A stretch of DNA of 64,000 nt from Rhizobium sp. SL86. GTDB lineage: Bacteria; Pseudomonadota; Alphaproteobacteria; Rhizobiales; Rhizobiaceae. The stretch covers positions 124,001 through 188,000 of the forward strand of contig NZ_JAPPRJ010000001.1 of NCBI RefSeq assembly GCF_026672545.1. Reading direction: 5' to 3'. A program made the translations under genes and the position numbers. Below are positions 7,295-45,982 of this stretch, in pieces; within the stretch, counting starts at the first letter, position 1, and the number at the start of each line of letters is the position of its first letter. Below the pieces are notes generated by a model. That model did no database searches. It was given only the letters and a program-made list of their open reading frames with translations, and was not told the origin of the DNA.

Positions 7295-7314
7295 GGCATT
7301 TCTCCTCCCGCATT

Positions 7315-7346
7315 TATAACTGGTAAAATGGCTTTTACCAGTTATA
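7315..7346. promoter_or_regulatory. Perfect 14+14 bp inverted repeat, candidate operator of the CGNR regulator
   Basis: Arms TATAACTGGTAAAA (7315-7328) and TTTTACCAGTTATA (7333-7346) are exact reverse complements around the spacer TGGC. The site lies in the 60 bp between the divergent permease and CGNR regulator genes, 20 bases before the permease start and 8 before the regulator start. Symmetry and position fit a dimeric repressor site controlling both genes. No experimental evidence is available from sequence alone. Confidence 0.7.
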
Positions 7347-7354
7347 TTCCGGCC

Positions 7355-7903
7355 ATGAGCTTTTCCTGGACCCCTCACCGTTTTGCCGGCGGCGCGCTGG
7401 CGCTCGATGTCGCCAACAGCGTGATCCTGCGCTTCGACGCTGCCCGCAGCATCGATCGTTTTGCCGACCCAGCCCAGCTGTCCGCCTTTCCGCAAGCGGC
7501 TGCGGCATTTTCCGCCGAACGCGCCCTGTTCGGAGCTTTGACACCCGTTAAGCCACAGAATCACGCGGCTTTTCTTGGGCTGCGCGAGGCGATAGACCGG
7601 CATTTTCGCGCCGCGGCCGAGGGGATGCCGTCCGACCCTCTGCTCGCCGATCTTCTGCAAGCGGCCGCCTTGCTCTTGCGGCAGTCCCCGGATCCACACT
7701 CGCTCGAGGCCCAGACAGTGCACTCGGCACTGCGGCTGATCGCCTTGCCGGAGCCGGAGCGGCTGAAGATCTGCGGCCATTGCGGATGGTTGTTTCTCGA
7801 CCGCAGCAAGAACAAAAGCCGCTTCTGGTGCGACATGGCCGTGTGCGGCAATCGCGCCAAGGCGGCCCGTCATTACCGACGCAAGAAAGGGGAACCGGAA
7901 TGA
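7355..7903 (+). CDS. CGNR zinc-finger (ABATE-domain) transcriptional regulator
   Basis: Predicted DNA-binding regulator of 182 residues. The N-terminal ABATE-like region begins WTPHRFAGGALALDVANSV; the C-terminal zinc finger is visible as CGHCGWLFLDRSKNKSRFWC followed by DMAVCGNRAKAARHYRRKK, containing the CGNR signature and four likely zinc-binding cysteines. ATG 7355 is preferred because the protein then starts as homologues usually do; an ATG at 7328, inside the palindrome, and a TTG at 7277 are alternatives. No good ribosome site precedes 7355, so the message could be leaderless. Its stop overlaps the next start by ATGA. Likely autoregulated through the palindrome just upstream. Confidence 0.87.
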   Translation: MSFSWTPHRFAGGALALDVANSVILRFDAARSIDRFADPAQLSAFPQAAAAFSAERALFGALTPVKPQNHAAFLGLREAIDRHFRAAAEGMPSDPLLADLLQAAALLLRQSPDPHSLEAQTVHSALRLIALPEPERLKICGHCGWLFLDRSKNKSRFWCDMAVCGNRAKAARHYRRKKGEPE

Positions 7904-8466: not shown

Positions 8467-9369
8467 ATGCTTGAAGGATTATCCGCCTTTCCGCCCACAC
8501 CCACCGATGCCGAGGGAACCGTCCAGGCCGAGGCACTGTCGCGCCTGATCGACCGCCTCGCCACCACGGCCGTCGATTCCATCGGCCTGCTCGGCAGCAC
8601 CGGCGGTTATGCCTTTCTGTCGCGCGAGGAACGCCGGCGGGCGGTGGAGATTGCGCGGGAAGCCGTGGATGGTCGCACACCGCTGATCGTCGGCGTCGGC
8701 GCGCTGCGCACGGATGCGGCCGAGGCGCTCGCCCGCGATGCCAAACAGGCGGGAGCGGACGGCCTGCTTCTGGCGCCGGTCTCCTACACGCCGCTCAACG
8801 ACGAGGAGGTCTATCAGCATTTTCTCGCGGTGGCGGAAGCGACCGATCTGCCGATCGTCATCTACAACAATCCGGGCACGACGAAATTCACCTTCAGCCC
8901 CGACCTGATCGGCCGATTGTCGCAATTGCCGACGGTTGCGGCGGTCAAGATGCCGCTTCCCGCCGGGGACGATTTTGCTGGCGAGATCGCCGATCTGCGC
9001 CAGCGTACGCCGCCAGGTTTCTCCATCGGTTATAGCGGTGACTGGGGCGCGGCACACGCGCTGCTCGCCGGAGCCGATGCCTTCTACAGCGTGGTGGCCG
9101 GACTTTTGCCCAAACCGGCTCTGGCGCTGACGCGTGCGGCGATCGCGGGGGATGCCGAGGCCACCCTTCGCCTCAATGCCGCTTTCGATCCGCTCTGGGA
9201 GTTGTTCAAGCAATTCGGCAGTTTCCGCGTGATGTATGCCATTGCCGCGGAACTCGACCTCTTCCACGCCGCCCCGCCCCGGCCGGTTCTGCCGATCCCG
9301 GCGCAAGCGCTGCCGCGCGTCGCTGCGGCACTTGAGGCGCTTGAGGCGCTTGAGGCGCTTGAAGGTTAA
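8467..9369 (+). CDS. Dihydrodipicolinate synthase / N-acetylneuraminate lyase family protein
   Basis: A 300-residue class I aldolase-like TIM barrel. Visible features: the pyruvate-binding GSTGGYAFLSREER near residue 42 (equivalent to the GTTGE motif), the Tyr of VIYNNPG near residue 136 and the Schiff-base lysine in AAVKMPL near residue 161. Because true DapA has GTTGE, and this has GSTGG, it may act on another 2-keto-3-deoxy substrate rather than in lysine synthesis. It follows the lipoprotein gene by 66 bp on the same strand. The C-terminus is a short LEA repeat made from an exact 9 bp DNA repeat. No clear ribosome site precedes ATG 8467. Confidence 0.85.
   Translation: MLEGLSAFPPTPTDAEGTVQAEALSRLIDRLATTAVDSIGLLGSTGGYAFLSREERRRAVEIAREAVDGRTPLIVGVGALRTDAAEALARDAKQAGADGLLLAPVSYTPLNDEEVYQHFLAVAEATDLPIVIYNNPGTTKFTFSPDLIGRLSQLPTVAAVKMPLPAGDDFAGEIADLRQRTPPGFSIGYSGDWGAAHALLAGADAFYSVVAGLLPKPALALTRAAIAGDAEATLRLNAAFDPLWELFKQFGSFRVMYAIAAELDLFHAAPPRPVLPIPAQALPRVAAALEALEALEALEG
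9331..9363. repeat. 9 bp tandem repeat in the 3' end of the DapA-like gene
   Basis: Three exact copies of CTTGAGGCG (9331-9339, 9340-9348, 9349-9357) plus a partial fourth copy. The repeat is in frame and encodes Leu-Glu-Ala three times, extending the last helix. Slippage in units of nine would change only tail length. Confidence 0.9.
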
Positions 9370-45943: not shown

Positions 45944-45982
45944 AAAAAACCCCGGATCGACCATGTCGATCCGGGGTTTTTT
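45944..45982. terminator. 18 bp stem bidirectional terminator
   Basis: Left arm AAAAAACCCCGGATCGAC (45944-45961) and its exact reverse complement at 45965-45982, separated by CAT. T-runs on both strands let it end the rpsF-rplI operon and the convergent emrA-like gene. Confidence 0.96.

Follow-up and report, generated by a model that had tools for sequence, protein, structure and literature searches.

The founding structure of the ABATE/zf-CGNR proteins is that of Jann_2411 from Jannaschia sp. (PDB 3h0n). In its available text, the report on this protein presents Jann_2411 as a likely dimer and as a predicted ligand-dependent transcription regulator, and states that ABATE genes in general co-occur with ABC transport membrane proteins (PMC2954205). 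According to the accessible part of a study of Bordetella, the CGNR gene bp3097 is induced together with the molybdate transport genes bp3094 and bp3095 (PMC9976334). These have locus numbers neighbouring that of bp3097, and the co-induction, as given in that part of the source, is a possible clue to the class of ligand. A literature search for a DNA-binding site of zf-CGNR/ABATE proteins, covering journals open without subscription, found none; it turned up the Jann_2411 structure paper, reviews and articles in which the names are mentioned. Here we analyse a palindrome that lies upstream of a CGNR gene in a 64-kb stretch of DNA (hereafter the window), and compare it with the DNA upstream of close, diverged, distant and plasmid-borne CGNR genes.

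Results

The features of the locus are collected in Table 1. The C-terminal finger of the regulator matches zf-CGNR (PF11706) with 63.2 bits against a cut-off of 24, and the N-terminal domain matches ABATE (PF07336) with 30.2 bits against a cut-off of 24.4. Residues C140, C143, C159 and C164 are invariant in 25 sequences. The predicted structure has a mean pLDDT of 85.9 overall and of 54-75 in the finger region. Its only fold match below E 0.001 was 3h0n (E 4e-4, TM 0.51, rmsd 8.6), a loose overall superposition. The same entry was the sole sequence match in a profile search of the PDB, in the finger region, and a single-sequence PDB search with the regulator gave no match. The genome of origin has one CGNR gene, and zf-CGNR/ABATE proteins are widespread, occurring in 33 of the 249 genomes, and 22 of the 132 genera, sampled across the phylum. 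The ATG of the lipoprotein-like gene overlaps the CGNR stop codon (ATGA, 7900-7903). The encoded protein contains LTAC, which we take to be a lipobox-like motif, and searches of Pfam, NCBIfam and PHROG with it returned no match.

Table 1. Features of the CGNR locus in the window
Feature	Position	Strand	Remarks
LivH-type membrane permease (BPD_transp_2), 296 aa	6404..7294	-	divergent from CGNR gene
Intergenic space between CGNR and permease genes	7295-7354		60 bp
Permease ribosome-binding site, GGGAGGAG on the - strand	7302..7309	-	from sequence
Candidate -10 of permease promoter, TATAAA (- strand)	7313..7318	-	mirrors the CGNR one; consensus matching, window only
Putative operator, perfect 14+14 bp palindrome TATAACTGGTAAAA-TGGC-TTTTACCAGTTATA	7315..7346	.	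position and sequence conserved
Left half-site core TAAC	7317..7320	+	sole TAAC-N{10,20,21}-GTTA site of the 64-kb window
Candidate -35 of CGNR promoter, TGGTAA, weak match	7321..7326	+	consensus matching only; inside left arm
Right half-site core GTTA	7341..7344	+	20 bp after left core
Candidate -10 of CGNR promoter, TATATT	7343..7348	+	overlaps right arm; ends 6 nt before ATG
CGNR/ABATE regulator, 182 aa	7355..7903	+	zf-CGNR and ABATE Pfam matches; best fold match 3h0n (Jann_2411)
Small lipoprotein-like protein, 166 aa	7900..8400	+	3' of CGNR gene

The preliminary description of this locus had reported two 14-bp arms that are exact reverse complements across four bases and take up the greater part of the 60 bp that separates the divergent genes. 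Both points were confirmed: the arms, TATAACTGGTAAAA at 7315-7328 and TTTTACCAGTTATA at 7333-7346, are 100% complementary with four bases between them. Perfect 14-bp arms with a loop of up to 20 occur at two places in the window, the palindrome and an inverted repeat at 45944-45982, and in 50 mononucleotide-shuffled versions of the window perfect inverted repeats of 12 bp numbered 7 altogether. The stretch has a z of -5.49 when folded as single-stranded DNA. A search for its 28-bp core with up to three mismatches found one occurrence in the 5.98-Mb genome of origin, the palindrome itself, and no further regulon sites at that threshold. The spaced pattern TAAC-N{10,20,21}-GTTA, which we propose below as a code, is matched in the window at 7317-7344, with a gap of 20.

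The second long perfect inverted repeat (45944-45982, arms AAAAAACCCCGGATCGAC) has GC-rich arms flanked by runs of A and T, and looks like a bidirectional terminator. A looser form of the site pattern, with two mismatches, was found at six further places in the genome of origin, two of them AT-rich in the middle; the AT-rich, two-mismatch sites outside the window at G000 C1:1141254 and C9:638250 could be weak additional targets.

An ATG at 7328, inside the palindrome, had raised doubt about where the regulator begins. This ATG is present, in the reading frame of the CGNR gene. However, the matched homology of 80/80 relatives (the best 80 of 106) starts with the first residue of the 7355 version, and there at an ATG. 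Among the same 80, by hand count, eight have an in-frame stop 6 or 9 nt upstream of the equivalent of the 7355 ATG, and only seven have an in-frame ATG at -27. On the start of homology, the upstream in-frame stops, the rarity of the -27 ATG and the predicted position of the promoter, we reject 7328 as the likely start codon in favour of 7355.

By consensus matching, the best -10 hexamer ends 5-7 nt before the regulator ATG in all 81 sequences (the window and the best 80 of 106 relatives), and a Shine-Dalgarno-like motif precedes that ATG in 0/81. The regulator mRNA is therefore probably leaderless, and is predicted to start at or beside its own ATG. From the -10 positions on both strands, the palindrome covers both predicted promoters, with the promoter hexamers partly coinciding with the TAAC and GTTA cores.

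The close set, in which the site was followed first, comprised the best 80 of the 106 regulator relatives from a scan of named genomes (64-83% identity). AACTGG-N14-CCAGTT was found 10-12 nt before the ATG in all 81 sequences, including the window; over this 12-base core pattern 67 sequences were exact, 10 had one mismatch and four had two, and the central bases of the palindrome varied. The permease and the lipoprotein gene were present in 80/80 of these relatives. When the sequence of the 80 loci (516 kb) was searched for TAAC-N{10,20,21}-GTTA, 80 matches were on-site and two off-site. Genus and family searches, whose loci partly overlap the set of 80, gave TAAC-N20-GTTA together with the permease and the lipoprotein gene at 54/54 loci.

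Within the genus, 50 of 57 genomes contained a CGNR orthologue (E below 1e-68). In the seven that lacked one, the best-scoring permease match was only 27-28% identical, and a loosened site pattern was matched only at two mismatches, or, in one genome, not at all. Regulator, permease and site are thus lacking together in 7/7 genomes, and the unit is absent as a whole.

A diverged set (n = 49, 39-54% protein identity) was made up of 48 loci from the 61 listed clade-2 genomes and one clade-1 locus. TAAC-N20-GTTA was found no more than 70 bp from the start in 49/49 loci, with the permease opposite in 48/49 and the lipoprotein gene in 49/49. The palindrome interior was altered in many of the diverged loci listed, for example to TAACTTGTCAAA on its left side and CGGTTAGA on its right, so it is the TAAC cores that are kept. 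Homologous CGNR genes without a similar palindrome had been named in the preliminary description as grounds for giving up the operator; a palindrome was found in 81/81 sequences of the close set and at 49/49 diverged loci.

The lipoprotein-like gene lies directly 3′ of the regulator gene in 80/80 close relatives (the best 80 of 106) and at 49/49 diverged loci. Because it is kept beside the regulator throughout, permease, regulator and lipoprotein genes form a conserved three-gene unit. A gene for a DHDPS-family aldolase (8467-9369) follows the unit on its 3′ side; it was matched in the flanking DNA of just 8/80 relatives (the best 80 of 106), and is therefore probably not part of it.

We also searched 394 genomes of the family with a stricter pattern, allowing up to one mismatch. 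Matches were obtained in 79/89 clade-1, 25/61 clade-2 and 9/244 remaining genomes. The pattern was thus found in 113 genomes, against approximately 78/394 by hand count for a reversed-pattern control, so the raw family-wide count is not specific on its own, and it is the position beside CGNR that carries the argument. Among the matches listed in family genomes, 67 of 75 sites lay directly upstream of a CGNR gene (from hand-copied lists).

Distant CGNR genes were drawn from the genus, the order (60 loci) and the phylum. The finger pattern recognised 97 of 99 distant CGNR loci, and the two in which the finger was unrecognised (L242 and L265) were left out. Removal of near-duplicates left 80 upstream segments, each of 301 bp and measured from starts that were estimated rather than annotated. 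In an unsupervised search for inverted pairs of 5-mers at gaps of 0-24, TAACC/GGTTA ranked first, with 40/80 segments; the maximum over all words was 13 in 50 shuffles, and GC-rich words reached 23 in the coding parts of the same CGNR genes. When TAAC-GTTA was counted by gap from 0 to 45, gaps of 10, 20 and 21 were found at 18, 20 and 17 loci respectively, and all other gaps at no more than seven. Among all 256 tetramers at 46 gaps, TAAC at 10, 20 and 21 came out at the top, along with the shifted AACC pairs. TAAC-N(10, 20 or 21)-GTTA was present at 48/80 distant loci, compared with a mean of 0.41 and a maximum of 3 in 200 shuffling runs, and TAAC-GTTA controls in the same loci gave 0/80 for the coding parts and 3/80 for stretches further upstream.

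A permease match nearby was lacking in 46 of the 48 site-bearing loci and in 76/80 overall. As 46 of the 76 permease-less distant CGNR genes carry the half-sites, it is the regulator and not the permease that the site accompanies. The symmetrised consensus (capitals for 60% or more) is tcTAACC.tttaaa.GGTTAga at gap 10 and GTAACCTgT.AAa.....tTT.AcAGGTTAC at gap 21, and the window arm TAACTGGTAAAA is a version of the latter. Many distant sites keep the TAAC ends with little complementarity inside. As loci related by descent do not count independently, they were also clustered, and a site was present in 24/48 clusters at 50% protein identity and in 9/21 at 40%. No TAAC-GTTA at gaps near 10 or 20 was found in 25/80 distant segments; members of this site-less kind may have been given a wrong start, lie inside an operon, read other targets or have half-sites that have diverged.

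The gaps of 10 and 20-21 are one helical turn apart. In 45 of 50 cases a protein and its nearest relative fell into one spacing class (26.5 on average and at most 39 after shuffling), as they did in 15 of the 20 cases in which that relative was less than 50% identical. More than one site was found in 17/80 distant segments, and in 12 of these 17 the copies were 41-43 bp apart, which is four turns of 10.5 bp; the sequences look like one related protein group, so the 12 tandem loci are not 12 independent cases. Phased spacings of this kind are what a protein bound on one face of the DNA would be expected to give.

A further set consisted of 25 CGNR genes on named plasmids, hand-picked for taxonomic spread from the 120 matches listed. 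TAAC-GTTA at gaps of 9-11 or 19-22 was found at 11/25 plasmid loci (shuffles: mean 0.34, maximum 3), and at the strict gaps of 10, 20 and 21 at 9/25. The site-bearers include Macrococcoides and Mesobacillus (Bacillota) and three Actinomycetota. The other 14/25 had no such site at gaps of 9-11 or 19-22; nine of them are Streptomyces, and several of the site-less Streptomyces CGNR genes follow a co-oriented gene at a short distance. Unsupervised ranking of tetramers was not clear-cut in these 25 loci, TAAC at gap 20 tying at six with TCAC and CGGC pairs.

Other features of the plasmid loci were recorded. TCAC inverted pairs occur at gaps of 11 and 16 in 6/25 loci each (L331-L355, mainly high-GC), equal to TAAC at gap 20; they could represent a variant half-site or have arisen by chance. 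Seven loci (L343, L344, L349, L350, L351, L353 and L354) carry TAAC-GTTA sites in tandem, two or three each, with a tandem spacing of 42 bp in L351, L353 and L354. The CGNR gene is divergent from an MFS transporter gene at 4/25 loci (L334, L342, L343 and L346) and from an alpha/beta hydrolase gene at another 4/25 (L349, L350, L351 and L354), an arrangement which suggests that genes for transport or degradation are controlled locally.

Discussion

The site is two-fold symmetric, lies in the predicted promoter of the regulator's own gene and is conserved with that gene. Judged from sequence comparison, the palindrome is very likely the autoregulatory operator of the CGNR regulator, controlling both its own gene and the divergent permease gene. 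The preliminary description had proposed it as an operator candidate, and conservation at 81/81 and 49/49 loci, together with half-sites that follow CGNR genes, supports that reading. It took so exact a site to offer a ready consensus; the useful consensus is the half-site TAAC(C/T) with quantised spacing, not the 14-bp arm.

Since the site lies over a predicted core promoter, it could in principle be conserved as a promoter alone. The locus would then hold only overlapping divergent core promoters, with symmetry arising from mirrored -35 and -10 elements, and no regulator would bind. The arms do contain -10- and -35-like hexamers on both strands in the same geometry, in part overlapping the TAAC/GTTA cores. 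However, the 10-bp class (18/80) misfits promoter spacing, 12 of the 17 multi-site loci have tandem copies at intervals of 41-43 bp, and elsewhere in the 516 kb covered by the 80 loci (best 80 of 106) there are just two further matches. The 10-bp class, the tandem repeats and the specificity of the site disfavour this account, and we regard it as quite unlikely. It is hardly credible that the palindrome acts as an RNA hairpin, whether terminator, attenuator or stability element, in spite of its perfect arms and strong predicted fold. Start points deduced from the -10 positions fall outside it on both sides, only two compensatory cells were seen among 62 distinct sequences, though some pairs break in up to 24, no Rfam match was found, and the many distant sites with TAAC ends show little inner complementarity. 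The near absence of compensatory change, the lack of an Rfam family and the inferred promoter position are grounds for rejecting an intrinsic terminator or structured RNA.

Adjacency cannot prove autoregulation, and another regulator might bind the palindrome, the CGNR gene being merely one adjoining target. Against this, the genome of origin has a single site, beside CGNR; in the genus, site, permease and CGNR are missing together in 7/7 genomes that lack the orthologue; the half-site accompanies CGNR genes in different phyla and gene neighbourhoods; and the spacing class tracks similarity of the CGNR protein (45/50, shuffled maximum 39). We consider binding by another regulator very improbable. 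The CGNR protein might instead bind the palindrome and activate the permease promoter rather than repress it. Some divergent regulators do both, and the sign of regulation is not given by sequence, but the site covers both predicted core promoters, where a bound protein normally blocks polymerase, and activation appears unlikely.

If the palindrome is an autoregulatory operator acting by repression, a regulator dimer would engage each TAAC half-site with one of its C-terminal treble-clef zinc fingers, both from one face of the DNA and two helical turns apart. The bound dimer would block RNA polymerase at both overlapping promoters and thereby keep down its own gene, the lipoprotein gene coupled to it and the gene for the permease, and a ligand of the ABATE domain would release it.

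For the family as a whole, the upstream sequences point to a common code. A large part of zf-CGNR proteins, across phyla, probably reads the half-site TAAC(C/T), approximately TAAC(C/T)(T/G)GTNAA in the long class, its dimers using inverted pairs 10-11 bp (one turn) or 20-21 bp (two turns) apart according to subfamily and, in some subfamilies, stacking in tandem every 41-43 bp (four turns); the palindrome in the window would be a very perfect form of it. If this is true, genome sequence would suffice to predict a member's target. A half-site with two quantised spacings would thus give many zf-CGNR members a predictable target, and would serve as a simple probe in binding assays and in screens for ligands. 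It is also relevant to the way in which a dimer of treble-clef fingers recognises DNA. As the TAAC word stands at one- and two-turn spacings before many distant members, the function of the CGNR family becomes directly testable.

The regulator in the window shares with Jann_2411 the two-domain arrangement of ABATE and treble-clef CGNR finger; it differs in having a candidate operator, as the available text on Jann_2411 gives no DNA target or operator (PMC2954205). The symmetric site is consistent with a regulator dimer, by analogy with Jann_2411, the one protein for which a dimer has been reported as likely. FadR/GntR operators have the form TGGT...ACCA with approximately 3 bp between halves (TGGT-N3-ACCA). 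The window arms contain CTGGT and ACCAG, but AACTGG and CCAGTT are 14 bp apart and the adjoining regulator is not a GntR protein; the 14-bp spacing in the window and its relatives rules out a FadR/GntR site. Divergently transcribed local repressors of the TetR/LacI type, which act on autoregulatory operators, read their half-sites by a helix-turn-helix. They resemble the present locus in that an inverted repeat overlies the promoters within a short stretch between divergent genes and is the single target in the genome, whereas the half-sites described here would be read by a zinc finger and are spaced, in this family, by one or two helical turns.
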